Part shown: piece by piece, positions 45,225-57,550 of the stretch
Position numbering within the stretch: position 1 is the first letter of the stretch
Layout of the letters: every line of letters begins with the position of its first letter
Source of the DNA: Bacteroidota bacterium
Lineage (GTDB): Bacteria > Bacteroidota > Bacteroidia > Chitinophagales > Chitinophagaceae
Assembly (NCBI GenBank): GCA_947452555.1
Contig: CANGDH010000002.1
Location: forward strand, 186,001-250,000
Length of the DNA: 64,000 nt
Direction of reading: 5' to 3'
Program-made: the position numbers and the translations under genes
Notes under the pieces: generated by a model
What the model was told of the DNA's origin: nothing
What the model saw: the letters and a program-made list of their open reading frames with translations, nothing else
Databases searched by the model: none

Positions 45225-45225
45225 G

Positions 45226-45298
45226 TGGCACCACCCGGGCTCGAACCGGGGACACAAGGATTTTCAGTCCTTTGCTCTACCAACTGAGCTACAGCGCC
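45226..45298 (-). tRNA. tRNA-Phe (anticodon GAA)
   Basis: All arms can be folded: acceptor GGCGCTG / TGGTGCC (with G-U pairs), D arm GCTC / GAGC, anticodon stem AAGGA / TCCTT with loop CTGAAAA (anticodon GAA), T arm CCCGG / CCGGG with loop TTCGAGC, and discriminator A. CCA is not encoded. This is the intact copy at the left edge of the mobile element; the 5' 48 nt lie inside the 99-bp direct repeat, and the 3' part is unique chromosomal DNA. Confidence 0.97.
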
Positions 45299-45349
45299 AT
45301 CGGATATTCATCCATCCAATTATATTGCTATAACCGGGTTGCAAATATA
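45251..45349. repeat. Left attachment repeat (99 bp, with tRNA-Phe 5' half)
   Basis: This stretch is identical, base for base by eye, to 56743-56841. It begins within the variable-loop region of tRNA-Phe, covers the anticodon, D and 5' acceptor arms, and continues 51 nt upstream through the -7 box (TATATTTG on the minus strand). The flanking bases differ at both ends (g/c on the left, g/t on the right). It is the attL of the element at 45251-56841. Confidence 0.95.
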
Positions 45350-45460: not shown

Positions 45461-45481
45461 GCGAGACAGTAAACGAGACAG
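45461..45481. repeat. Integrase arm-type site, left copy
   Basis: The segment contains CGAGACAG twice, 12 bp apart (CGAGACAG, TAAA, CGAGACAG). The same 21 bp occur at 56581-56601 in the same orientation. Location just inside each att repeat fits an arm-binding site for the tyrosine integrase encoded 17 bp downstream. Confidence 0.75.
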
Positions 45482-45497
45482 ATACAAACTATTAATC

Positions 45498-46655
45498 ATG
45501 TTTACCGAACCAACCATTTACAACCCCAATGACATCCAAAAGCGAGCGTTTGTCCAATCCTACATTAATGGGAAAAGATTCAGATTCTACACTGGAAAGA
45601 GTTTAAAAATCGCATGCTTCCCCAATGAACAAGCCGTTTATAAAGACCGGTCTAGGGAGATTAGGAGGCTTTCCCGTCATCTTAATAATCTACTTGAAAA
45701 GGGATGGTTACCCACAGATGAAGCAGAAAGAACAACCCCAGAATTGCCTATAAACGAAGCATTTGATATAGTGTTAGATGTAGTTGGATCGGGGGCATAT
45801 AGCAGGCTTTATCAAAGAGATATTATAAAGACAATACAACAGCTAAAAGAGTTTCTAATATCTAGAAATCAGCTAAGATATATTGGCGCATTAAAAAGCA
45901 AAGACTTGGAGGTATTTCTGTCTCAATTTAAAAGCTCTGGCACTTATTACATGAATAAGAGACGAACCCTTTCTTCTATTTTTAGCATTTTGAATAAGCA
46001 AGGATACATTGAAAATAATCCTGTTAAACAAACCACTAAGTTAAAAACTAAGGCTTTACTTCATGCTCCATATGAACCAGAATTCCTTGCCAAAATATTT
46101 TCTCACCTGAAAAACAATCAGCCTAAATTATACATCTGTGGTTTACTCATGTATGGATGTTTCTTAAGGCCTCATCAAGAAGTAAGAATTTTAAAGAGAG
46201 GTGATTTTTCCGAAAACCTTGAAACAATATCTCTTGGTGGCACTTCCAATAAAACGGGTAATATTAGAATCGTAAGAGTGCCCTCCTTTATTATTAAAGA
46301 ACTTTATATCTTAGGGATTCACTCCTTGGATCACAACGTAAACATATTTAGTAATGCCCCCGAGCCGCTAAACGAATCATATTTTAATCTTTTATGGTCA
46401 AGGTCCAAAGTAAAAATGAAAAAGTTAGACTTGATAAAAAACAATCAAACTCTTTATAGTTTTAGGCACACTGGCGCTATCGAAATATTTAAACATAATC
46501 GTGATATTAAGCTATTACAGGGACTCATGGGGCACTCGAACCTTAACACTACAATCATATATTTAAGGGGCTTAAAGGTGGATTTAAATCAATTTAATGG
46601 CGATGTGTTGTTTCATCAAATTGAAAAGGGCTTATCGGGATTAAAGGAATTCTAA
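45498..46655 (+). CDS. Tyrosine integrase of the element
   Basis: The 385-residue recombinase has an N-terminal arm-binding-like region, a SAM-like core-binding domain (about 83-180) and a catalytic domain. Visible catalytic residues are Arg224 (GCFLRPHQE), Lys252 (TSNKTGN), Arg323 (YSFRHTGA), His346 (LMGHSNL) and nucleophile Tyr355 (IIYLRG). The first His of the HxxR box is Tyr320, which I also associate with other Bacteroidota integrases. It is the first gene inside the left end and points into the element. It should catalyse integration and, with an accessory factor, excision at the tRNA-Phe site. Confidence 0.95.
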   Translation: MFTEPTIYNPNDIQKRAFVQSYINGKRFRFYTGKSLKIACFPNEQAVYKDRSREIRRLSRHLNNLLEKGWLPTDEAERTTPELPINEAFDIVLDVVGSGAYSRLYQRDIIKTIQQLKEFLISRNQLRYIGALKSKDLEVFLSQFKSSGTYYMNKRRTLSSIFSILNKQGYIENNPVKQTTKLKTKALLHAPYEPEFLAKIFSHLKNNQPKLYICGLLMYGCFLRPHQEVRILKRGDFSENLETISLGGTSNKTGNIRIVRVPSFIIKELYILGIHSLDHNVNIFSNAPEPLNESYFNLLWSRSKVKMKKLDLIKNNQTLYSFRHTGAIEIFKHNRDIKLLQGLMGHSNLNTTIIYLRGLKVDLNQFNGDVLFHQIEKGLSGLKEF

Positions 46656-47052
46656 AACATGAAAAACACTGCCACCCGGTTCGTGAAACAAAATTCCCTT
46701 TCATGTATTTAGGCATGGCATCAATACAGTAAGCACGATAATTATTGTACATATAAAATTCGTGGATTACTCTGTGGATAGCTATTTGGCAAGCAATAAT
46801 GTGAGTGTTAATTTTGCTTTATAGTTATACCAACTATACCAACAAGGGGGCGAGGATAAAACTTCACCCCTTGTTTTACTATTTATGCCAATAGTAGTTC
46901 CACCATACTGATTTGTTTACTAATATTTTTAATATTCAATTTTTTTGAGGGGGTTAGAAAATAATTATCTAAGGGCTTTGGCATGCCCCACCTATAATAT
47001 ATCACCCCCTGTTTTTCCCTTGTTTGCGTCTGATGCCGTCGACCTTGCGTGA
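46656..47052. other. Noncoding region upstream of the polymerase, candidate origin
   Basis: I find no credible gene in these 397 bp. They hold a tandem 9-bp repeat TATACCAAC TATACCAAC (about 46827-46843), a 9-bp inverted repeat AACAAGGGG / CCCCTTGTT just after it, and TGTGGATAG at 46773-46781, one mismatch from a DnaA box (TTATCCACA on the other strand). Direct repeats, a DnaA-like box and a hairpin in front of a replication gene are what a small origin would show, but the evidence is only suggestive. The promoter of the polymerase gene should also lie here. Confidence 0.4.
46841..46875. terminator. Hairpin in the candidate origin, possible terminator
   Basis: AACAAGGGG (46841-46849) pairs perfectly with CCCCTTGTT (46867-46875) around a 17-nt loop, followed by TTACT. 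The loop is long and the T tract short, so it may be an origin structure rather than a terminator for the integrase transcript. Confidence 0.4.
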
Positions 47053-48558
47053 ATGAAAAACCAAAAACCAAAAACATGGAAAACAAAACCAGTAGTTTTC
47101 CTTCCAAAAAAACTTGATTTGATACAACTTGTCTCTGAAAATATTCCATTTAAGGAGTTTAAAATGGAAAAAGCAGAATACATAATTTCTTTGATATTTG
47201 AAATTCCAGCCAACAATAAAAACATAGATGATAAAAATGGCTTCGTTACAATTAATGCAAAAACGCTAGAAACTATTATATGGGATTATAAAAAGTACTT
47301 AGATTATTTTATTCAAATGGGTGTGCTTGAAACTGATGGATACTATATTAATGGAGAGAAGTCAAAATCCTTTAGAATAAATGAAGCATATAACTCAGAA
47401 GTGATTCCCCAAATTAGAAAAACAAAGAAAGTCGGCTTAAATTATATCGAATTTAAAGGTGGAAAAAAGAAGTACGGACACCTATTTAAATGGTTTGATG
47501 AAAGGCTTACTATTGAAGTAGATGAGGCGGTTAATTATTTACAAGAAGAATTTGCAAATAACATGAAGGGCAATGACAAAAATTCAAATGAGGCGATTGC
47601 TAGGCTTAATCGATCAATTGTAAACGTTTATAAAATACACTATGGGGCATATAATGTAACCATTGATAATAATATAGCTAGGCTGCATTCGCCATTAACA
47701 AACCTTAGGAGTGATCTAAGACCATTTTTAAGATATGATGGTAAGAAACTCGCCAGTATTGATATCAAGAACTCACAACCTTATCTAAGCGCCAGAATTC
47801 TAGATATTGATTTTTGGAGCAGCGCCACACATAAAAATGGGGTGACCGATGTGGTTAATAAGGTTAGTATTGATCAATTAGGATTAAATAAGGAAAGTAT
47901 TCGAGTTAAAGATATAGAAGTATATATTATGATCTGGAAAAAGAATGAAAGTCAATACAGTATTGAGTTACAGACATATTTAAACTTAATACTAACTGGC
48001 GGGCTATATGAGTTCTTCCAACCTTATTTAATACAAGAACTGGGCGAGGAATACCATAACAGAAAACTTGTAAAGCAACAGATACTGATGTGCTTATACT
48101 CAGACAACGTTTATTTCAAACAACCCAAGGCGGCTACAAAGAGAATTTTCGAGCGTCTATTCCCTAATGTATATCGACTATTCAGCATGATAAAAGAACG
48201 TGATAAAAGGCATTTATCTTGGATTCTACAGAGGATTGAGAGCTATGCAATGCTTGAGATCGTAACCAAAAAGATGGCTAAGGATTGTCCAGAAACGCCA
48301 ATATTTACCATTCACGATAGCATATTAACCACAATTGGAAATGAGGATTATGTTGATGAATTCTTGACCCTTGAGCTTACAAAACTTATTGGCCATATGC
48401 CAACATTAAAAGTTGAAAGAGAAGAGAATTGTAATGAAATTAACATGATAGCGTCTTGTCAAAAAGGCGATAACCCACCCATAAGTTTGACCCCCCCTTT
48501 TTACCCTGTTTCTTATGAAGTAGAAGGATCTTTGTATCTTAATAAAATACATTTATGA
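47053..48558 (+). CDS. Compact superfamily A (TV-Pol-like) nucleic acid polymerase
   Basis: In this 501-residue protein, residues 35-115 look like a small winged-helix region (YLDYFIQMGVLETDGYYINGEKSKSFRI). The core has motif A at Asp237 (SIDIKNSQPYLSA). Motif B is Arg337-x3-Lys341-x7-Tyr349 (RKLVKQQILMCLYS), with the exact spacing of E. coli Pol I R754/K758/Y766 and T7 RNA polymerase R627/K631/Y639. A Gln393 helix follows (LQRIESYAMLEIV), then motif C His421-Asp422-Ser423 (FTIHDSILTT). No exonuclease domain is present. HDS is the motif C form of T7-like RNA polymerases, while DNA polymerases usually have HDE. It resembles the TV-Pol mobile-element polymerases proposed as primase-polymerases (from memory). 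Confidence 0.8.
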   Translation: MKNQKPKTWKTKPVVFLPKKLDLIQLVSENIPFKEFKMEKAEYIISLIFEIPANNKNIDDKNGFVTINAKTLETIIWDYKKYLDYFIQMGVLETDGYYINGEKSKSFRINEAYNSEVIPQIRKTKKVGLNYIEFKGGKKKYGHLFKWFDERLTIEVDEAVNYLQEEFANNMKGNDKNSNEAIARLNRSIVNVYKIHYGAYNVTIDNNIARLHSPLTNLRSDLRPFLRYDGKKLASIDIKNSQPYLSARILDIDFWSSATHKNGVTDVVNKVSIDQLGLNKESIRVKDIEVYIMIWKKNESQYSIELQTYLNLILTGGLYEFFQPYLIQELGEEYHNRKLVKQQILMCLYSDNVYFKQPKAATKRIFERLFPNVYRLFSMIKERDKRHLSWILQRIESYAMLEIVTKKMAKDCPETPIFTIHDSILTTIGNEDYVDEFLTLELTKLIGHMPTLKVEREENCNEINMIASCQKGDNPPISLTPPFYPVSYEVEGSLYLNKIHL

Positions 48559-48968
48559 AAGATAAAATCTTAGTTAAAATTGACGGGAGTTGTCATCAGA
48601 ATCCACATGGAGAAATGGGACTTGCTTATATTATTGAGTTCCAGAATGGAGAAACCGTAACGCACAGTGAGGTAGTTGAAGCTAAATATGGTAATACGTT
48701 GATAAGTGCTGAATATAGGACACTGAACCTAGCCCTAGAAAAATTGATAGGGCTTAATTTGACGGGTTCATATATTGAAATTAATACAACTTCAAGTATA
48801 ATTTTAATGCACTTTCTAGGACACGTGAATCCCAACAAAGGCTACTATGTAGGTGATGCACTAAAGGCGATTAAGAACTTAAAAAGATTTAAAAATATAG
48901 TTATTATCAAAGTACAGAGAAAAGATAATATCGAAGTTGTTAATCTATCGAAAAAAATTACAAGCTAA
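48555..48968 (+). CDS. RNase H-like protein with two lost catalytic Asp residues
   Basis: The 137-residue protein opens like RNase HI (KIDGSCHQNPHGEMGLAYII; Asp10 at the same position as in E. coli) and keeps the second acidic residue Glu53 (SAEYRTLNLAL). The third carboxylate is replaced by Asn77 (YIEINTTSSIIL, normally D-S-x-Y). The fourth is probably replaced by Asn130 (NIEVVNLSKK, normally N-x-x-A-D-x-L-A). The start overlaps the polymerase stop (ATGA), so translation is coupled. It may bind RNA-DNA hybrids or primers without cutting, or use altered metal ligands. Confidence 0.7.
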   Translation: MKDKILVKIDGSCHQNPHGEMGLAYIIEFQNGETVTHSEVVEAKYGNTLISAEYRTLNLALEKLIGLNLTGSYIEINTTSSIILMHFLGHVNPNKGYYVGDALKAIKNLKRFKNIVIIKVQRKDNIEVVNLSKKITS

Positions 48969-49074: not shown

Positions 49075-49857
49075 ATGGATAAGTATCTAATAATTACAGA
49101 GAATGATGAGTCTCAGTGGGATGATGAAACTGGCGTAAAATACCACTATCCACCAAAGTACAAGAACAAGATACAAACTGGCGGACTTGTGATATATTAC
49201 AAAGGACGTTTAAAAAATCCTATTTATAGTTCAAAACGTTTGTCAAATGAACCCCACTATTTTGGCACAGGTGAAATTGGGAACATTAAAAAAGAATTAA
49301 ACACAAAAAATTATTTTGCTTCAATATATAATTTTAAGCTTTTTAATGAGGCTGTGGCCTTTAAAAACCAATTTGGTTATTTAGAAAATAAGGCTAATTC
49401 ATTTAGCGGTAATTATTTTAGAGGAAATGGAGTTAGGGAAATTACCAAGGAAGAGTATGATAGAATACTTAAGAATGCAACAATTTTGGATCAAACACTA
49501 AGTGACCCAAGTGCAGACTACAATATAACTCATACAAGTAATATTAGCGAGGGTAAAAAGATTACCATCTATTCTACTAAATATGAACGTAGTAAACAAA
49601 ATAGAGACTTGGCGCTTAAAATTCACGGTTATAGCTGCTGTATCTGTTCTATAAATTTTAAAGAAAAATATGGTGATATTGGCGAGGGCTTTATTCATAT
49701 ACATCATGTAAAACCACTTTATTCGTTAGAAGTAGAGGCAGTTATTGACCCAATGAACTTCCTTGTTCCAGTTTGTCCCAATTGCCATGCAATGATTCAT
49801 AGAAAGAAGGGGCAGATCGTAAGTATTGAAGAGATGAAGAAAATTATAATAAAGTAA
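49075..49857 (+). CDS. HNH endonuclease with N-terminal PUA/EVE-like domain
   Basis: The 260-residue protein has a C-terminal HNH nuclease (about 175-245): CCIC (Cys188/191), IHIHHVKPL (His210/211), Asn228, CPNCHAMIH (Cys234/237, His238/242). The N-terminal part (KYLIITENDESQWDDETG, YHYPPKYKNKIQTGGLVIYYKG) looks like a PUA-like modified-base reader of the kind attached to modification-dependent restriction nucleases. This suggests a type IV restriction or homing function for the element. The N-terminal call is uncertain; the HNH call is firm. Confidence 0.82.
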   Translation: MDKYLIITENDESQWDDETGVKYHYPPKYKNKIQTGGLVIYYKGRLKNPIYSSKRLSNEPHYFGTGEIGNIKKELNTKNYFASIYNFKLFNEAVAFKNQFGYLENKANSFSGNYFRGNGVREITKEEYDRILKNATILDQTLSDPSADYNITHTSNISEGKKITIYSTKYERSKQNRDLALKIHGYSCCICSINFKEKYGDIGEGFIHIHHVKPLYSLEVEAVIDPMNFLVPVCPNCHAMIHRKKGQIVSIEEMKKIIIK

Positions 49858-49900: not shown

Positions 49901-50557
49901 TTAAGTTTTAAGTGTCTTTATACTCCAAATAACAGCGATAATTAAATATCTCAGTAAGTATGCAAAAACTAACAAAATCCAAAATATATTGATTGCAATT
50001 TTAATTTGATTCTTTTCACTTAACATTTTTGATATTAACACATCAATTCTTCTTTGTATATCTATTCTATAATTGTAATTAGAGATGGATGCTTCGTAAT
50101 CTTTTTGCTCATCTTCATTAATAGTATATTTATTCAAAAAGGTTTTCAAATCTTCAAATGAATATATTTTATCAATATCATCTAACCAATAATTTAGTTG
50201 CTTCCAAAAAGAATATTTACTGTTATAATCATCATAAAACATTTTGTAATCCTGTGTTAATATTACATTCCAAAATTGAAAACGAGTCTCATATTTTTTC
50301 CCATATCCAACATTATTATAAAAAGTACTACCTCTGTTAAATACAATATATTGAACATCAATTTTCTTATCATATTTTTTTCTAAGATTTTCTATATTAG
50401 AAGTCCACAATGTAGGTGTATTACTTATACTATCTTCTAATGTCTTTTTTTTCGAACTTAAAATAATATTATAACTATAAGTAAATACAAAAGAAAGAAG
50501 TGAAAGAATAATTATTGATAATAAAATTAGAAACTCTTTAGCAATTAATTTTTTCAT
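49901..50557 (-). CDS. Membrane protein of the element, unknown function
   Basis: The 218-residue protein has two membrane segments, near residues 10-32 and 185-212. The charged loop between them (about 150 residues) is predicted to lie outside the cytoplasm, with YNYRIDIQRRIDVLISKMLSEKNQ just before the second helix. I do not recognise a family. It is the last gene of the six-gene leftward operon, 9 bp after the lipoprotein gene. Confidence 0.6.
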   Translation of the reverse strand: MKKLIAKEFLILLSIIILSLLSFVFTYSYNIILSSKKKTLEDSISNTPTLWTSNIENLRKKYDKKIDVQYIVFNRGSTFYNNVGYGKKYETRFQFWNVILTQDYKMFYDDYNSKYSFWKQLNYWLDDIDKIYSFEDLKTFLNKYTINEDEQKDYEASISNYNYRIDIQRRIDVLISKMLSEKNQIKIAINIFWILLVFAYLLRYLIIAVIWSIKTLKT

Positions 50558-50566
50558 GCGTATAAT

Positions 50567-51127
50567 TTAAATATTTATATAAAAATCAACCAATTCACCA
50601 TTTAGTTGAATAACTTTTTCATCTAAATCAAATGTTAAGTCTGAATCATTATCGTCTATCTTTTCAGCTTTAATGCTAGGAAATAATGAATTTAATGAAT
50701 TAACCTTAACTATAAAACAACCTTCAACTTCTTCACGTTTTAATTTACTTTGCAAATTTTTAAATAATAATTTATCTGTTTTAATAACAGATTTTAATAA
50801 AAATGGGCTAGAATTAAAATGGTATGAAGAAACTATTAAACTGTATCCATTTTCAAAATTTACTATATCTATAATTGTTCCATAAATTAAAACATAACCT
50901 TTAGCTGAATCTATTCGATTGTTTAATTCATATGTATAAGTCGAAGAGTCTGTTTCTAAATCATATGCATTATAGATTAGCCTTAGCTTTTCAGAATTTA
51001 TTTTATTTACTGAATCTTTTTTTTGAAACTTTGTTTTATCAGTTTCTGAATTTTCAATATTATTATTCTTATCTTGACCACAAAATGTGAATAAAAATAT
51101 TAGTAAAACAAGAGATGTTTTTTTCAT
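50567..51127 (-). CDS. Lipoprotein of the element, unknown function
   Basis: The 186-residue protein begins with a lipoprotein signal (SLVLLIFLFTFCGQDK, Cys near residue 16). A Lys/Asn/Ser-rich linker follows, then a beta-rich globular part (GYVLIYGTIIDIVNFENGYSLIVSSYHF) that could be an OB-fold-like barrel. Membership of an envelope operon suggests it is anchored in a periplasm-facing membrane leaflet. Confidence 0.65.
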   Translation of the reverse strand: MKKTSLVLLIFLFTFCGQDKNNNIENSETDKTKFQKKDSVNKINSEKLRLIYNAYDLETDSSTYTYELNNRIDSAKGYVLIYGTIIDIVNFENGYSLIVSSYHFNSSPFLLKSVIKTDKLLFKNLQSKLKREEVEGCFIVKVNSLNSLFPSIKAEKIDDNDSDLTFDLDEKVIQLNGELVDFYINI

Positions 51128-51151
51128 ATGATAGTTTGACTTATTAAAAAT

Positions 51152-51919
51152 TTATTGATTAAACTCCTTTTCAGAAATTTTAGAAGTTATCAATCGATCT
51201 TTATTAGACATCAAGCTTCTCTTCATGTCTAAATTTAATTCAAGATCATAAAAAGAAAATTGATAATGAGTGATTTCTTGGTTTCCCTCTATCGTTTTTC
51301 CGGTAAATTCCTTCGTGAATCTTAGTAATTGATCCCCTTTTTTATATATTGGATTTCGTAAAAACCTAACCTTACATTGCTCATTCTCTATTGACTGCCT
51401 GTAGTCCTTTCCATATGCTGTTTTTAAATAATATGTGCCAAGTGGAATGTTTTTCATAGAATATGATTCACCAGCTTTTATGTATGAAATTCTAATGCAA
51501 ATATCATTGGAATTGATAAGTTTAACTATTACGTCAGACTCAAAGCCACACCTTATGTTTAAACTATTGTCAATTTGTGTATCAAATTCTGGTTGTATGT
51601 TTTCACAATTATAATCATCGCCAGTTTTTGCATTTACTTTGCTCCAATTTTTATACTTTTCATGTTCATCTAATGGTTTTAATAAGCTTGTATTTATATA
51701 CCCTTCATCACCATAATAAGTAACTAAAACCCAATCGGTGTTGTTTTCTAATCTAGTGCCCCCTACAACTTCTCCTAGACTAAGTGTTCCTAGAATTTTA
51801 GATTTTGTGTTTGGCTGTGACCTCAAATTTGCACTCTGCCCTATTATTACATAAGAAGTTTCCTGTGAATATCCTTTTATGCAAAAGATAAATAACAAAA
51901 TGGTTATTAGTTGTTTCAT
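51152..51919 (-). CDS. Exported SH3b-domain protein
   Basis: The 255-residue protein has a signal peptide (FIFCIKGYSQE) and a bacterial SH3 domain at about 22-90 (SANLRSQPNTKSKILGTLSLGEVV, WVLVTYYGDEGYINTSLL). The C-terminal 160 residues are a separate domain with NLNIRCGFESDVIVKLI, not recognised. SH3b domains usually bind cell-wall peptides. It lies 3 bp after the J-domain gene in the operon. Confidence 0.8.
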   Translation of the reverse strand: MKQLITILLFIFCIKGYSQETSYVIIGQSANLRSQPNTKSKILGTLSLGEVVGGTRLENNTDWVLVTYYGDEGYINTSLLKPLDEHEKYKNWSKVNAKTGDDYNCENIQPEFDTQIDNSLNIRCGFESDVIVKLINSNDICIRISYIKAGESYSMKNIPLGTYYLKTAYGKDYRQSIENEQCKVRFLRNPIYKKGDQLLRFTKEFTGKTIEGNQEITHYQFSFYDLELNLDMKRSLMSNKDRLITSKISEKEFNQ

Positions 51920-51922
51920 GAT

Positions 51923-52495
51923 TTAGAATTTTATGTCTCCTGTTTTATTGTTTCTAATTTCTTCCTCGGTTTCGTTTTTAGGACTTTGATTGAGGGGTCT
52001 TATAATTGAGTCAGATTTGTGAAAATTTATATCACCAGTATTTAAGCTACTGTCAATATTATCATTAACCTCTGTTTTGTTATATTTATCAATATGTTTA
52101 GAATCAGAATTTAAAAAAAGACTTCCGACAAAATAAATTAGACATATGATTAAATACGAAGCAAATAATCTAAAGGATTTTGAACTTTTGGCCTTTACTA
52201 AAATAGTGGTGGCTTTTTTATTATACTTATGTTCACTATTTTGGGTAGTCTTCTTATACGAAGTTTGCCTAAAAGAATGAGTCTCGTTTTTTACTAAAGT
52301 AGTATCATAAATAATTCTTTTTTGAGGATCTGATAAAATCAGGTATATTAAATTTATTTGTTTGAACTTATTCTCAAAACCTATATCTCCTTGATTTTTA
52401 TCTGGATGATACTTATTAGCTAACTTTCTATAAGCCTTTTTTATTTCATCTTGAGTTGAACCTTCATTTATTTCAAAAATTTGATAATAATTCAT
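51923..52495 (-). CDS. Membrane-anchored J-domain protein
   Basis: Residues 1-65 of 190 form a J domain (MNYYQIFEINEGSTQDEIKK, KYHPDKN with HPD at 30-32, ILSDPQKRIIYD). One membrane helix follows at about 104-122 (LFASYLIICLIYFVGSLFLN), then a polar tail. There is no zinc-finger or substrate domain of DnaJ. It should recruit DnaK to the membrane for some client, perhaps the exported or membrane proteins encoded beside it. Confidence 0.88.
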   Translation of the reverse strand: MNYYQIFEINEGSTQDEIKKAYRKLANKYHPDKNQGDIGFENKFKQINLIYLILSDPQKRIIYDTTLVKNETHSFRQTSYKKTTQNSEHKYNKKATTILVKAKSSKSFRLFASYLIICLIYFVGSLFLNSDSKHIDKYNKTEVNDNIDSSLNTGDINFHKSDSIIRPLNQSPKNETEEEIRNNKTGDIKF

Positions 52496-52504
52496 TTTTT
52501 AGAT

Positions 52505-52681
52505 TTATCTAGAACATACCCCACATTTCCCACCTTCTTTTGCACAATGTTTACAATACTTGCAATTCTTACATGCTCGACAATTTTTTGAACCTGTACA
52601 GGTTGCGAATGCAACTTTAGTTACTCCACTATATGATAGGGCTAGCGTAGAAACAAATACAAGCATAATTATTTTTATCAT
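52505..52681 (-). CDS. 58-residue exported Cys-rich peptide
   Basis: An ATG at 52681 opens a 58-codon frame ending at 52505. The N-terminal 26 residues form a signal peptide (MIKIIMLVFVSTLALSYS, then a VAFA-type site). The mature peptide of about 30 residues has eight Cys in CxxC runs (CRACKNCKYCKHC, then CGVC). The pattern would suit metal binding or disulfide bonds. It lies 9 bp before the J-domain gene and 67 bp after the 463-residue protein gene, in the same direction, so it is part of the operon. Confidence 0.75.
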   Translation of the reverse strand: MIKIIMLVFVSTLALSYSGVTKVAFATCTGSKNCRACKNCKYCKHCAKEGGKCGVCSR

Positions 52682-52748
52682 CTCGCTTATTTTTTAATTA
52701 CTTGAATTTATGAAATTAGAAGGATTTGTCATATGATTTTGGCGATTT

Positions 52749-54140
52749 TTAATAATTTGACTCCTCAAATACCACTTTAGTCCTATCTAATTTAATTACC
52801 TTTTCTTCGTTTCTCTCCCCTGATATGTAATAATACTGCGCCCATTCCTCATCTATCTGTTTTAAAAAAGCCTCTTTGATTCTTGAACACTTTTCGCTCA
52901 TAGAATTTGAATATGGATTGGCAAGCTCTTCTATACTCGACCTAAGTGACTCAAAATCAGTCCTTGAGGATACTCTTGAATATATATCTAAAAGCTCTTT
53001 TTTGTACTCAGGGAGGTCTTTAAAATAGATCCCCTTAGGCTTACTTAAAAAGAAGAGATAGACGGTTTTTTGAAGCGGGGTTAATTTAACCTCAATATTA
53101 TAGTCTTTAAGATAAATTCCCCCAACTGGCGAGATTATCAATTCACTAATTTTAGGCTGGATATTAGTATGTAGGTCCTTTAATAACGATAACATTTTCC
53201 CCTCTAAGCCCAGTCGCTCGGGGGATACCTTTTCAATAAGTGTAAGCATTGTTTTTAAGGTATGGGCTTTACCATTATTTTTTAAGAGCCTCTCAAGTTC
53301 TTTTTTAAATCCACTACTAACCTCAACTGGCGCTTCTAGCTTTTCTGGATTAGATTCTTCGTCATCGGAACTAAGCCTAAATTGTTTGCTAAATTGAATT
53401 CCATGATATCTTTTATCATAAGGTGCTGATACAATCCATAAATAATAATTAATCGCCTCCTCTATGTCTTTTAAACTGTCTTCTGGCAAATAATATACAC
53501 TATAGGTGTACTCATTTTCATTCCATTTTTTTAGCTTAATAAAACAAGGCCTGTCTAAAACATCGTTTTTAAAAAGTTTGCCAATTATATTATCGATTAA
53601 CAATGTTTCTTTTATTTCCGACAACCTGCAGTTGGTTAAATTCCTAGGGTTTAACTGTGGAAAATAATAAGAAATTATATCTTCTGCATCTTCTAGGCTA
53701 ATCGTATCTAAATCCCCTACGTATAAAAAATCAAGACGTTTTTTAATCAATGCTGCTTCGATCTCGACTTTGTGTTGTTTTATATACTCATTGATCAATG
53801 GAGAGAACTGGGGTTCATAATACACCACTATATTGTGGTCAGGCAATAGCTCCCTTTCGCTAATAATAGAATCGGGTTGTTCTTTAATCTCTTGCCCCCT
53901 TGGGTCAATTAGGGAAACTATACTTTTCTTTTTTACTTCCTTTCTTTTTGAATATTTGAGTATAAGAGTGGATAGTTCACTATTAACCTTCTTGATTATA
54001 TCAAGCAGCTTACTGGCGTTTCTATTATTAAAATGATGCTCAAGTATAGTTAAAATGATCAAGGGAATGACTGTTACAATTATAAATGCAGCAAGAATAA
54101 AGCCAAGTATGATTGCTATTATCTTGTTTATCATTCGCAT
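52749..54140 (-). CDS. Membrane-anchored protein with helical C-terminal domain
   Basis: The 463-residue protein has one long hydrophobic segment at residues 5-34 and a large cytoplasmic part. A middle domain contains DFLYVGDLDTISLEDAEDIISYYFPQ. The C-terminal domain (about 355-460) contains LTPLQKTVYLFFLSKPKGIYF, EKCSRIKEAFLKQIDEEWA and YYISGERNEEKVIKL, which I recall as a recurring Bacteroidota pattern of unknown role that could be a winged-helix domain. It is the first gene of the leftward operon and is divergent from the gene at 54239. Confidence 0.65.
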   Translation of the reverse strand: MRMINKIIAIILGFILAAFIIVTVIPLIILTILEHHFNNRNASKLLDIIKKVNSELSTLILKYSKRKEVKKKSIVSLIDPRGQEIKEQPDSIISERELLPDHNIVVYYEPQFSPLINEYIKQHKVEIEAALIKKRLDFLYVGDLDTISLEDAEDIISYYFPQLNPRNLTNCRLSEIKETLLIDNIIGKLFKNDVLDRPCFIKLKKWNENEYTYSVYYLPEDSLKDIEEAINYYLWIVSAPYDKRYHGIQFSKQFRLSSDDEESNPEKLEAPVEVSSGFKKELERLLKNNGKAHTLKTMLTLIEKVSPERLGLEGKMLSLLKDLHTNIQPKISELIISPVGGIYLKDYNIEVKLTPLQKTVYLFFLSKPKGIYFKDLPEYKKELLDIYSRVSSRTDFESLRSSIEELANPYSNSMSEKCSRIKEAFLKQIDEEWAQYYYISGERNEEKVIKLDRTKVVFEESNY

Positions 54141-54238
54141 AGGTATTGCTTTTTATTTTGTTTATGAAATAACTGCAAGCTTGCAAAAAGCTTATTTATT
54201 TATAATGAATTGTGACATTTGATATAAATATAATCAAT

Positions 54239-54757
54239 ATGAGATTTAAAAAAATCATTACACTTGTTATTTTTATTGTTATTAGTAAAACTATTATTGC
54301 ACAGTCTGAAAAAGACTCCTTCATTGATACAAGGATCAAAAAACTCTTAGATTCAAAAAACGTAAACTATTCGATTACAAAAAATGGCGACTTTAAAATA
54401 AATTTAATTACCCAAGAAGCTCCTAAAGAGCGAACTCAAAGAATTTATATTTATTCAAAAAAAGAATCTTATCGTGACTTTGAAATTTTAAATATTGAAA
54501 GTGTTGGTTTTAAAATTCCTAAAAACAGCATAAAGACTCCAGTACTTATTGATTTACTTAAAAAAAATGGTACAATTAAAATCGGAGCTTGGTCTATGTA
54601 TGAATATAATAGCGATCCTGATAACTATTCATTTAGTTTCGAAATTAAGGTTGCTAATAACATAAGTGCTGAGGAGTTGGTTACGCTATTCAATTTCGTT
54701 GGTTTTCAGGCCGATGAAAAAGAAAAGCTTTGGGGAAACGGTTTGGATGAAAATTAA
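54239..54757 (+). CDS. Exported protein of the element, unknown function
   Basis: Read from the Met of MRFKKIITLVIFIVISKTIIA, a clear signal peptide; an ATG nine codons upstream (54212) is also in frame. The 172-residue product has a mixed alpha/beta mature part (QRIYIYSKKESYRDFEILNIES, YSFSFEIKVANNISAEELVTLFNFVGFQADEKEK). I do not recognise it. It starts the rightward set of small genes, 98 bp from the divergent operon. Confidence 0.65.
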   Translation: MRFKKIITLVIFIVISKTIIAQSEKDSFIDTRIKKLLDSKNVNYSITKNGDFKINLITQEAPKERTQRIYIYSKKESYRDFEILNIESVGFKIPKNSIKTPVLIDLLKKNGTIKIGAWSMYEYNSDPDNYSFSFEIKVANNISAEELVTLFNFVGFQADEKEKLWGNGLDEN

Positions 54758-54833
54758 TTTTTTCTTTATTATTTAAAAACAAGCATATGTTACTTATTAT
54801 TATTTACTTATTGTTTATTTTGCTTCTAGAAAA

Positions 54834-55178
54834 ATGTCCATGAGCTTTGGCTGGGGTATGTTTTTTTGCTTAATTTATTCACTCATCCCGGGATTGATTA
54901 TTATTCAATCAAGTGGAAAGAAGGGTTATTCAAATAAATACAAAAACAAGGGTACTGGATGGCAAGATACCAAAACGGTTTTGTGCATGCTTATCGGTTC
55001 ATTTTTTATTCTTTATGGTATTGTAAATTATAACTCATATCAATTTGAATATAACAAGTCAGGTCTTTACATGGTTATAAGCATTGGTATTGGCCTAATT
55101 GGAAATTGCATTTACCTTCTTTCAGACGAAGATGAGGAGTATATAATTAGATTCCGAGGACATTCAAGAAAATATTAA
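54834..55178 (+). CDS. Three-helix membrane protein, unknown
   Basis: The 114-residue protein has hydrophobic segments near 6-24, 50-68 and 79-98 and a charged C-terminus (SDEDEEYIIRFRGHSRKY). No family is recognised. It belongs to the rightward set of small element genes. Confidence 0.55.
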   Translation: MSMSFGWGMFFCLIYSLIPGLIIIQSSGKKGYSNKYKNKGTGWQDTKTVLCMLIGSFFILYGIVNYNSYQFEYNKSGLYMVISIGIGLIGNCIYLLSDEDEEYIIRFRGHSRKY

Positions 55179-55198
55179 TGAATAATTAAATACATATT

Positions 55199-55360
55199 AT
55201 GACAGAAGCAGAAAAAAGACAAGAACAAATAGATAGAATAAACAAGAGACTAAATACAAAACCAGAGTTTGTTAAATTGGTTAACGATTATTTTAATAAA
55301 CCGGTAGTTGCAGTTACTATAAATACAACGAAAAAAACTAATAATGAAAACGGGAGATAA
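55199..55360 (+). CDS. Small charged protein (53 residues)
   Basis: An ATG at 55199 opens a 53-codon frame ending TAA at 55360. It is strongly charged and helical (MTEAEKRQEQIDRINKRL) with a Thr/Asn-rich tail, and overlaps the next gene's start by 17 bp. No family is recognised. The case for its being real is the tight packing with its neighbours. Confidence 0.45.
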   Translation: MTEAEKRQEQIDRINKRLNTKPEFVKLVNDYFNKPVVAVTINTTKKTNNENGR

Positions 55361-55601
55361 GTTAATTTGTATAAACGTTGACGGCTTATCAAAAAAAATC
55401 CATATGTCAAGCATTCCAGTTTTAGGAGGAATTTACACTGTTAGAGGAATTCCTCCTCGGTTAAAATATTGGTGCGATAAGCCCGGTGTTTTATTAGAAG
55501 AAATTACGGGTGATATGAGTGTTGTTAATTGCTTTAACGGAAAATATACACTCATTGAGTGCCATTTTTATCAAGATAGATTTATGAAACTACTATATTG
55601 A
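55344..55601 (+). CDS. Small beta-rich protein (85 residues), phage or island type
   Basis: The 85-residue protein (start MKTGDKLICINVDGLSKK, later GGIYTVRGIPPRLKYWCDKPGVLLEEI) looks like a small KOW/SH3-like barrel of a kind often found in Bacteroidota phages and islands. It overlaps the genes on both sides. The function is unknown. Confidence 0.6.
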   Translation: MKTGDKLICINVDGLSKKIHMSSIPVLGGIYTVRGIPPRLKYWCDKPGVLLEEITGDMSVVNCFNGKYTLIECHFYQDRFMKLLY

Positions 55602-55828
55602 ATTTTATTATTTCAAAAGAACTACTCACATATTACATACTTTCCTTTTTTAAAGAATATAGAATTATAAAAGATATACCAGAACCTAAACATGAGAAAC
55701 TTATTATATCTGATATCAATCAAAAAGAAATATTCTTTTCAATCAACTATAACAATAAAAGAAGAAAATATAAAATAACTTGGCAATTATATTTAGCCGA
55801 AAGTGCTGTCTTAAACATAATGAACTAA
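55598..55828 (+). CDS. Small protein (76 residues), TTG start
   Basis: The frame opens with TTG at 55598, overlapping the preceding stop (TTGA), and contains no internal ATG before its last residues, so a TTG start with translational coupling is needed. The product is basic and beta-rich (EIFFSINYNNKRRKYKITWQLYL). No family is recognised. Confidence 0.4.
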   Translation: MNFIISKELLTYYILSFFKEYRIIKDIPEPKHEKLIISDINQKEIFFSINYNNKRRKYKITWQLYLAESAVLNIMN

Positions 55829-55832
55829 TAAA

Positions 55833-56240
55833 ATGAAACATTTAGCTATTCCATTCCAAGATTCGATTGAATTAACATTTGATAACCGTACCCGTAAAAA
55901 AAGTCTAGTTTGTGAATTAGCATCCACCGAGATAGAAATCTTTCAATCGCTTTGTTATAGAAATGCAAAGGATTTTAAAACACCTCTTGTTCTTTTATTT
56001 AAGAACCCGCTTATTCAGTCCCTTTCAATGATTGGCTACAAATTTGATGTGGAACAGATATTTGTAAACATCGAGACCGGAGTTGTAAATAAGATCTACA
56101 CTATTTACAAAAGCAAGCAGTCGGGTCTATTTATTCAGGGGTATTCTGAGTTTTCGATGGTTATATTAGCGCCAGTTGGTTTTTGTAATAAGTATTCGAT
56201 TGAGATATTAAAAACCAAAATCAATGCACATAGTAAATAG
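55833..56240 (+). CDS. DUF192-like or unknown small protein of the element
   Basis: The 135-residue protein begins MKHLAIPFQDSIELTFDNRTRKKSLVCELASTEIEIFQSLCYRN. The segment ELASTEIEIFQSLCYR is loosely like the ARTP.RMRGLMFR motif of DUF192 proteins, but the match is weak. There is no signal peptide. It sits 4 bp after the previous small gene. Confidence 0.5.
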   Translation: MKHLAIPFQDSIELTFDNRTRKKSLVCELASTEIEIFQSLCYRNAKDFKTPLVLLFKNPLIQSLSMIGYKFDVEQIFVNIETGVVNKIYTIYKSKQSGLFIQGYSEFSMVILAPVGFCNKYSIEILKTKINAHSK

Positions 56241-56264
56241 TCTAATTTTTATGTAAATTACTAT

Positions 56265-56471
56265 ATGAAAAAAACAACCATCATTCAGCTATTGTTAATT
56301 GCAATTACAACCGTTTTCTTAATTATTTTTTATCAATTTTCACTTAATGGTAGATATTTACCTTGTGGAGAAAAAGCTGAAATACTAGATACCAGAACAG
56401 GAACAATGTATATTATTGATGATGATGATAAAGAAGTATATAAATATAGAGTATTGGGTAAGGTCCAATAA
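56265..56471 (+). CDS. Small single-span membrane protein (68 residues)
   Basis: One hydrophobic segment at residues 6-26 (IIQLLLIAITTVFLIIFYQF) is followed by a small external or cytoplasmic domain with TGTMYIIDDDDKEVYKYRVL. The family is unknown. It is the last gene of the element before the right end. Confidence 0.5.
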   Translation: MKKTTIIQLLLIAITTVFLIIFYQFSLNGRYLPCGEKAEILDTRTGTMYIIDDDDKEVYKYRVLGKVQ

Positions 56472-56742
56472 TATTCCCCGCCTTTTTGCTAGCTTTTATA
56501 TCTAAATCACCCCCTATAACACAGAATTGTTTTTGGTTACTAGTGGTTACTGCATTAACACACGCACACAAATATTTCATGCGAGACAGTAAACGAGACA
56601 GCAGAAATAAAATAAATCGTAATTTTAAATCGAAACCAGTTCTTTAACCGTCTGAACTTTATACTTGATTATTAGTATAAAATATTGAAAAACAACAAGT
56701 TGAGAAGAAAAAAGTGGGAGAATTCAAGTGAGTATTTATTGC
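56472..56742. other. Noncoding right end of the element
   Basis: I see no gene here. The region holds a short repeat GGTTACTA / GGTTACTG, the second arm-type site (56581-56601) and A-rich DNA up to attR. Transcription from the displaced tRNA promoter at the right edge would run leftward through it. Confidence 0.6.
56581..56601. repeat. Integrase arm-type site, right copy
   Basis: The 21 bp are identical to 45461-45481, in the same orientation, again with two CGAGACAG units 12 bp apart. They lie 141 bp inside attR, against 111 bp for the left copy inside attL. Confidence 0.75.
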
Positions 56743-56790
56743 GACACAAGGATTTTCAGTCCTTTGCTCTACCAACTGAGCTACAGCGCC
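56743..56790 (-). pseudogene. Truncated tRNA-Phe (5' 48 nt)
   Basis: The first 48 nt of tRNA-Phe are present (acceptor 5' strand, D arm, complete anticodon arm) without the T arm and 3' acceptor strand. It cannot mature as a tRNA. It retains an upstream promoter-like sequence, so a tRNA-half-like leader RNA running into the element is possible. Confidence 0.9.
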
Positions 56791-56841
56791 ATCGGATATT
56801 CATCCATCCAATTATATTGCTATAACCGGGTTGCAAATATA
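56743..56841. repeat. Right attachment repeat (99 bp)
   Basis: This is a perfect copy of 45251-45349. It holds 48 nt of tRNA-Phe 5' sequence and 51 nt of its leader, including the -7 box. The flanking DNA on the right is the original upstream region of the tRNA. It is the attR of the element. Confidence 0.95.
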
Positions 56842-56865
56842 TGGCTCTAGTGCTTTATAAACAAG
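56834..56865 (-). promoter_or_regulatory. Displaced original tRNA-Phe promoter
   Basis: On the minus strand CTTG (56862-56865), a 20-nt spacer and TATATTTG (56834-56841) form a Bacteroidota-type promoter facing the truncated tRNA and the element. The spacing equals that of the promoter now serving the intact tRNA. Confidence 0.6.
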
Positions 56866-56958
56866 AACTTGGTCCATTTTATTGTTAAAACCCTATTTCA
56901 GTTCTATTTCGTTGGAGTTGTCACTTAAGATAAGTGCCTTTAGTTTAATATAAGCAGA

Positions 56959-57177
56959 TTAGTTCAGTTTTAAATAGGTACCTTCAATTATAATCACATA
57001 GCCGTTCACCGATTCTACTATCGAGTAACCACTTTGTTTTTGGTCTCATTCATCCAATCACTTTCGTCTGAAATTATAATTCTTTTTTCTCCCTTCGTTT
57101 GAAGAATATCGTATTCGTGTTTTTTGTGATTCCCCTCAGAATTTACCAATACTTGAATTTTTTTTAATTTGATTCAT
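56959..57177 (-). pseudogene. Decayed small gene with two frameshifts
   Basis: From an ATG at 57177 the minus strand reads MNQIKK. A run of eight A breaks the frame; the next frame continues VNSEGNHKKHEYDILQTKGE and RIIISDESDWMNETKNK. A second shift near 57030 leads to YSIVESVNGYVIIIEGTY and a stop at 56959. The two shifts compensate, so the original would have been about 72 residues. It lies in the chromosomal flank just outside attR. The reconstruction is mine and the family is unknown. Confidence 0.4.
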
Positions 57178-57310
57178 TTTGAATGAATTAAAAAATATCA
57201 GATTTTCCTATCCCCAAAACTTATAAATACACCCCCATCAAAATGCTAGAAATTAAATTTAAGGAGAAAAGTCCCTATGTTAAACATACATATTTTACTT
57301 TTTTTACAAC

Positions 57311-57550
57311 TTGAAAAAGGTAAAAATCTATTATAGAAACGAGGAATTTTTAATCATCATAGGAAGGAACGTAAGAAAGCTGAGAACCACGGCAGGACTT
57401 ACTCAAACAGAACTTGCCTTTCTATGTAATGACTCAGACTACTCTCAAATCAATAGAATTGAGCTGGGTAAAATTAACTTTTCCGTTTCATACTTAACAT
57501 TACTTTCAACAGCGTTGAAAGTTAACATTGATGAAATTATTTCCAACTAA
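57311..57550 (+). CDS. XRE-family helix-turn-helix regulator
   Basis: The 79-residue protein consists almost wholly of an XRE HTH (IGRNVRKLRTTAGLTQTELAFLCNDSDYSQINRIELGKINFSVSYLTLLSTALKVNIDEII). No in-frame ATG exists upstream; the frame is taken from TTG at 57311. It stands alone outside attR and ends by overlapping the stop of the convergent EamA gene. The target is unknown. Confidence 0.75.
   Translation: MKKVKIYYRNEEFLIIIGRNVRKLRTTAGLTQTELAFLCNDSDYSQINRIELGKINFSVSYLTLLSTALKVNIDEIISN

Follow-up and report, generated by a model that had tools for sequence, protein, structure and literature searches.

The 64,000-nucleotide stretch of Bacteroidota DNA analyzed here (the window; assembly GCA_947452555.1, contig CANGDH010000002.1, positions 186,001 to 250,000) carries a polymerase gene, P0001 (47053..48558, forward strand, 501 residues, ATG start), whose product has an intact catalytic set and a predicted polymerase fold; on these grounds the protein is classed as a TV-Pol, one type of family A polymerase. 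P0001 sits in a tRNA-Phe-bounded element with its own integrase, and four same-genus relatives lack the insertion. The gene that overlaps its 3' end encodes an RNase H1-fold protein without the full catalytic set, and the combination of an integrase and a TV-Pol recurs across many Bacteroidota loci. Our best explanation, held at roughly even confidence, is that P0001 replicates an integrated mobile element, with a degenerate RNase H as helper.

Catalytic motifs and conservation

The catalytic residues listed in the first-pass annotation of this DNA (D237, R337-x3-K341-x7-Y349, and H421-D422-S423) are all present at the residue numbers it gave. In the AlphaFold2 model, the motif A aspartate D237 (47761..47763) is near the end of strand 231–238, motif B R337-K341 (48061..48075) is in helix 337–349, and motif C H421-D422-S423 (48313..48321) occupies the turn between strands 417–420 and 423–427; all three are encoded on the forward strand. 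Conservation was assessed in two sets of relatives whose membership may overlap, 119 from a database and 157 from loci. D237 is kept in every sequence (119/119 and 157/157), as is R210; K341, H421, and D422 are each kept in 119/119 and 156/157. S423 is present in 118/119 and 149/157, making HDS the family norm. Two positions are less fixed: 337 (Arg in 99/119 and 119/157, Lys in 15/119 and 33/157) and 349 (Phe in 107/119 and 136/157, Tyr in 12/119 and 19/157). The residue at motif A +5, Gln242 in P0001, is Gln in 119/119 and 156/157, and the residue at motif B +4, Leu345 in P0001, is Phe in 112 of the 119 database relatives and Phe (68), Tyr (58), Leu (16), Met (10), or Ile (4) in the 157 locus relatives. 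The corresponding pairs elsewhere are Gly/Met in T7 RNA polymerase, Glu/Tyr in T7 DNA polymerase, and Glu/Phe in the host Pol I. A loose regular expression for the motif order matches 7 of 20,000 shuffles of P0001 and 1 of 643 other open reading frames (ORFs) of at least 380 residues; it serves only as a rough guide because it was composed after P0001 had been seen and matches only 99 of 172 family ORFs.

Sequence searches with P0001 against Pfam, PHROGs, NCBIfam, PADLOC, and the PDB gave no credible match. Among 5.8 billion proteins, 342 were found at E ≤ 0.01, query included; in the 120 matches listed, four are close (57–67% identity) and the rest mostly share 31–39%. The clade containing P0001 (P0001–P0005) has an SH-like approximate likelihood ratio (SH-aLRT) of 100 and a long stem, in a tree built by a quick method and with long branches elsewhere. 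In its own genome (2.28 Mb, 13 contigs, ~90% complete), P0001 has one match by single-sequence search, and a profile detects a second, very divergent relative (G000:C1:227359-228894, the same as L278:7360-8895). This second TV-Pol retains D-x4-Q, RxxxK, and HDS and has an integrase and a tRNA-Lys nearby.

Predicted fold and family assignment

The model of P0001 is built of an N-terminal domain (residues 1–127; 47053..47433) and a polymerase domain with thumb helices, palm, and fingers (residues about 128–460; 47434..48432), both on the forward strand. By DSSP, the N-terminus runs H38–54, E65–68, H69–75, H79–88, E92–99, E104–109 (H, helix; E, strand), which is the order of a winged helix and agrees with the winged-helix-like N-terminus proposed in the first-pass annotation; the winged helix-turn-helix (HTH) family PF14947 matches weakly in 2 of 60 family members (best E 0.023). 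The absence of an exonuclease, also claimed there, is borne out: Pfam detects no exonuclease domain, and the two domains of the model fill the chain.

The polymerase domain resembles the TV-Pols described by Iyer, Abhiman and Aravind 2008 (PMC2579912) in having a minimal thumb, a hairpin with an Arg, two Asp in the palm, and RxxxK in the fingers; the 2008 description also includes a conserved Asp in the fingers. Judged by the secondary structure of the model, helices 156–172 and 178–196 form a thumb of two antiparallel helices, and R210, between short strands 203–204 and 211–212, corresponds by position to the arginine of the β-hairpin before the palm. D237 and D422 lie at the palm strand and hairpin, respectively, and R337 and K341 lie in the fingers helix, so that the predicted placement of D237, K341, and D422 in palm and fingers is upheld at the level of secondary structure and fold match. 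Fold match, motifs, and model together support the earlier assignment of P0001 as a superfamily A-type polymerase without an exonuclease, of the TV-Pol type. Compared with DNA polymerases I, theta, and T7, P0001 lacks the exonuclease, has a winged-helix-like N-terminus, and carries HDS for HDE and Gln for Glu at motif A +5. Pfam gave 33 families for 60 family members, and no PolA family is among the 25 of these that were listed. Bacteroidetes members were already in the 2008 TV-Pol alignment (Fig. 2 legend, PMC2579912), where the N-terminal domain was predicted to be all-helical, whereas the P0001 model has a winged-helix order with strands. TV-Pols were predicted from context to combine primase and polymerase functions (PMC2579912), and a primase-polymerase activity of P0001 is, equally, a prediction only.

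The first-pass annotation had taken HDS as a sign of kinship with RNA polymerases. This argument proved weak and was dropped because HDS runs through the whole family, which at the remaining diagnostic positions mostly departs from T7 RNA polymerase: P0001 has Gln242 and Leu345 in place of Gly and Met, and motif B +4 is mostly Phe or Tyr in its relatives, with Met in 10 of 157 as the exception. We consider it very unlikely that P0001 is an RNA polymerase or an RNA primase. Besides HDS and the occasional Met, which T7 RNA polymerase shares, such a role could draw on Foldseek matches that include mitochondrial RNA polymerases and on the best raw hhalign score, which went to T7-like RNA polymerases and is not significant (25.2, versus 15.5–23.6 for four controls). 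The hhalign local alignments, likewise non-significant, place HDS opposite both the HDE of Pol I and the HDS of T7 RNA polymerase. Against it stand the near-invariant Gln at motif A +5, the Phe or Tyr at motif B +4 (Phe in 112/119; either in 126/157), a chain too short for a T7-type promoter-binding domain, and the VIA-align fold comparison, in which every one of the 50 rows listed is a DNA polymerase. From these residues we expect P0001 to use deoxynucleoside triphosphates (dNTPs), with sugar choice perhaps relaxed.

The overlapping degenerate RNase H gene

The start codon of the next gene (48555..48968, forward strand) overlaps the polymerase stop codon in the sequence ATGA. Its 137-residue product has the RNase HI fold; T79 and V129 stand where two of the catalytic Asp would be. 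Across the eight degenerate RNase H proteins of this type, the third and fourth of the DEDD catalytic acids are missing in 8/8 and the first in 3/8, a loss of two or three of the four acids relative to RNase HI, while C13, H18, E20, E53, and H86 are identical in 8/8. These five residues could form a rebuilt active site that removes primers made by the polymerase, and two phage contigs carry an RNase H with all four acids 1.2 kb (L096:2491-2919) and 1.6 kb (L097:7978-8406) upstream of a TV-Pol; continued cutting by the 137-residue protein is nevertheless scarcely credible, given the consistently missing third and fourth acids, the missing first acid in three proteins, and a separate RNase HI encoded by the host genome.

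TV-Pols do not in general have an RNase H partner: a broad RNase H profile run over the scanned loci detected, besides the window (the same place as L082), only L018 (3.7 kb downstream), L096, and L097. Our literature search, which covered titles and abstract openings and left most subscription papers outside its scope, did not find a pairing of TV-Pol with an RNase H-fold protein. TV-Pols were said never to show conserved neighborhood linkage to nuclease domains (PMC2579912), unlike the window, where the RNase H-fold gene overlaps the polymerase gene. The 2008 statement is thus qualified by the window locus and the two phage contigs, although three loci make no general rule.

The tRNA-Phe element

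The element spans 11.5 kb between perfect 99-nt repeats and holds the integrase, P0001, the RNase H-fold gene, and cargo. Its left repeat (45251..45349) covers the 5' half of a complete tRNA-Phe (GAA) gene (45225..45298, reverse strand) and ~50 nt upstream; the right copy (56743..56841) is identical. Just inside the two ends lie copies of a 21-nt repeat (45461..45481 and 56581..56601) that may be an integrase arm site. The tyrosine recombinase (45498..46655, forward strand; Pfam PF00589, E 5e-9) is followed by a 397-nt gap before the polymerase (46656..47052), a candidate promoter or origin with tandem 9-mers and the inverted repeat AACAAGGGG/CCCCTTGTT. A structured RNA or origin is not claimed for this gap (fold z −1.7, with 7 of 100 shuffles equally good), and Rfam at gathering scores found only the tRNA.

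In the four same-genus relatives without the insertion, the tRNA-Phe flank lies ~12 to 37 nt from the EamA gene (start at window position 57547). The left repeat is followed on its right by ~57–60 nt that match these relatives, and the 705 nt beyond the right repeat (56842-57546) are missing from all four. A clean one-step insertion exactly between the 99-nt repeats is therefore not fully supported by the flank comparison. The anomaly may reflect an earlier insertion or an element-borne promoter copy, and the 705-nt stretch, with its XRE-type HTH gene (57311-57550), is possibly a relic of an earlier insertion. The part of a tRNA gene usually duplicated by such elements is the 3' end. Several of the elements seen here (that of the window, L063 at 8307/14313, L069, L057, and L038) duplicate instead the tRNA 5' half and upstream region, which means that part of the tRNA promoter would come from the element.

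Downstream of the RNase H-fold gene, an HNH protein (49075..49857, forward strand) is cargo and possibly a restriction enzyme, as suggested by weak matches to Pfam HNH (E 0.0017, below the Pfam cut-off) and to PADLOC mREase_IV (type IV restriction; E 1.7e-4). The remaining cargo (49901..56471), mostly without assigned function, includes an SH3-domain protein (51152-51919), a DnaJ-domain protein (51923-52495), and a 463-residue protein of unknown function (52749-54140) that is 32% identical over 370 aligned positions to L038:11707-12987 from a Prevotella TV-Pol element. Pfam recognized no helicase, primase, or relaxase family in any of the 15 ORFs of at least 60 residues picked between the repeats.

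TV-Pol loci across Bacteroidota

A scan of one genome per species over 84,980 species yielded 128 relatives; the 80 best loci were retained, 79 of them with a called polymerase ORF. In 56/79 there is an integrase within 4 kb of the TV-Pol (41 upstream and on its strand, 13 downstream and on the other strand, 2 in other arrangements); in 5 it lies farther away, and in 18 none was found. Integrase ORFs number 61 in the 0.58 Mb within 4 kb of TV-Pols versus 8 in the 0.80 Mb beyond. Among 392 sampled genomes of the phylum, 16 had a match, the window's own included. Of 83 loci examined, 55 have a tRNA nearby; in 18 of these, sequence of the tRNA region recurs as a direct repeat of 16 nt or more. 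The shortest such repeats may be chance, and L027 and L035 have whole tRNA genes duplicated. Five loci were excluded (L014, L031, L081, and L284, with repeats of only 16–17 nt, and L278, with repeats outside the tRNA gene), leaving 13, the window included, taken as bounded elements of 5.4 to 15.2 kb. The smallest are L035 (5.4 kb, bounds less certain), with three further ORFs, and L063 (6.1 kb), with an integrase, a TV-Pol, and two further ORFs, plus a third starting inside the right repeat.

Other genes differ among elements. Outside the window, the 12 bounded elements have 97 other ORFs, of which 85 were Pfam-scanned, giving 45 families; the 25 families listed include DUF3871 (4), AAA_24 (2), and AAA_25 (1), and no D5-type helicase. 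Further additions in other elements, as seen in gene clusters 3, 4, 10, and 11 (e.g., L038:8904-9176), are DUF3871, an AAA_24 ATPase, and small proteins that have no credible Pfam match and could be DNA-binding partners. Twelve Flavobacteriaceae-type loci (L003, L006, L007, L009–L014, L016, L022, and L031) share a tRNA-Ser(TGA), an integrase, a small HTH_17-type gene, and a TV-Pol, with varying cargo that by eye includes P-type ATPase and methyltransferase-like proteins.

This distribution bears on a reading in which P0001 and its RNase H-fold neighbor together make up a cargo or defense module of the element, a two-gene stress or anti-phage system. The operon-like gene overlap, the possible HNH restriction enzyme, and the defense role raised for PolA-SSB sets in Rice 2023 (PMC10061031) would suit such a system. 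We find it highly improbable in view of the integrase near TV-Pols in 56/79 loci amid variable other genes, and of PADLOC, which has no match for the polymerase and only a weak DruD match for the partner (E 2.9e-4).

Comparison with two-part primases and weighing of the evidence

P0001 resembles TV-Pols of PMC2579912 also in its mobile-element context, and a subset of those has a lambda-type integrase; the D5 helicase of TV-Pol contexts (PMC2579912) was not recognized in the window element. The closest functional parallel comes from Bacillota, where, according to Bebel 2020 (PMC7581432) and Rice 2023 (PMC10061031), CcPol-MP and PolA-SSB primases combine a mobile-element family A polymerase with a small co-encoded partner. 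Rice 2023 names a shorter last thumb helix in connection with primase activity. As these papers describe it, CcPol makes DNA primers, and its unprimed DNA synthesis requires MP, predicted to have an oligonucleotide/oligosaccharide-binding (OB) fold; Glu and Phe are kept at motif A +5 and motif B +4 (PMC7581432). The window differs in its partner, an RNase H1 fold instead of an OB-fold, in the tyrosine recombinase of the element, unlike the CcPol-MP and PolA-SSB systems as described there, and at the E710 gate, which is Glu in CcPol and Gln in P0001 (PMC7581432). P0001 is also reminiscent of phage divPolA2, presented in PMC11348598 as a divergent, exonuclease-less PolA with a new N-terminal domain; divPolA2 differs in being a phage gene beside a regular polymerase and in being said to lack a homologous thumb. 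The viral fold matches of P0001 include a Rheinheimera Barba phage DNA polymerase (E 9e-7), not necessarily a divPolA2.

Several observations weigh against P0001 as an element replicase with an RNase H helper. Profile-profile comparison with 25 Pol I and 30 T7-like RNA polymerases by hhalign gave probabilities all below 1% (narrow profiles), so the kinship of P0001 rests on fold and motifs. The pairing of a TV-Pol with a degenerate RNase H is certain in the window only and probable on one further contig; no RNase H partner was reported from the contigs of P0003–P0005, and among 200 genomes searched, the degenerate form was found in the window's own only. In RNase HI, an Asn pair preceding the catalytic Glu contacts the hybrid; this pair, too, is altered in the 137-residue partner. 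Lastly, the element has no recognized helicase, whereas the PolA-SSB primases studied adjoin one.

A possible but doubtful alternative is that P0001 is a primer-dependent DNA polymerase: the element would be primed by the host or by other means, and P0001 would only fill gaps or extend primers once excision or transfer has occurred, its RNase H-fold neighbor being a clamp or an unrelated gene. CcPol without MP only extends primers, according to PMC7581432, and neither an OB-fold partner nor a helicase was recognized in the element. A Hymenobacter plasmid with a relative of P0001 (L313, NZ_CP060788.1, 2824-4398; 25.7%, E 2e-39) also carries a separate replication initiation protein. The smallest bounded elements argue the other way: with an integrase, a TV-Pol, and two or three further ORFs, as in L063, the TV-Pol would be their only recognized replication gene.

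Proposed mechanism

If P0001 is the replication polymerase of the element, the integrase would excise the element as a circle, and the winged-helix-like N-terminus would bind element DNA and position the polymerase. P0001 would then copy the element, mainly with dNTPs, initiating strands unaided or extending very short primers. No longer a cutting enzyme, the degenerate RNase H would hold template or primer-template duplex next to the polymerase, as MP does for CcPol; this analogy is proposed from gene order and size only. In a bolder version, which we regard as unlikely, the pair would be a second, independently evolved two-part family A primase-polymerase with a retired RNase H, not an OB-fold protein, as the subunit that grips template or hybrid, and the tRNA-inserted element would be replicated by integrase, polymerase, and subunit alone, with no helicase of its own. 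On that reading, the two phage contigs that have an intact RNase H close to a TV-Pol would represent a starting state.

Significance

Nearly all known primases fall into two families, with piPolB and CcPol-MP as the exceptions named in Rice 2023 (PMC10061031), and no other TV-Pol was known as biochemically tested according to Bebel 2020 (PMC7581432). The TV-Pol kind is already known but hardly studied; what is added here are the tRNA-Phe element, its empty sites, the integrase pairing, and the RNase H overlap. A compact polymerase with a co-encoded degenerate RNase H would give a clean two-protein system in which to study strand initiation by a family A polymerase and the role left to an RNase H fold after cutting is lost. 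For Bacteroidota, it would provide a concrete candidate for how small integrase-plus-polymerase elements copy themselves.
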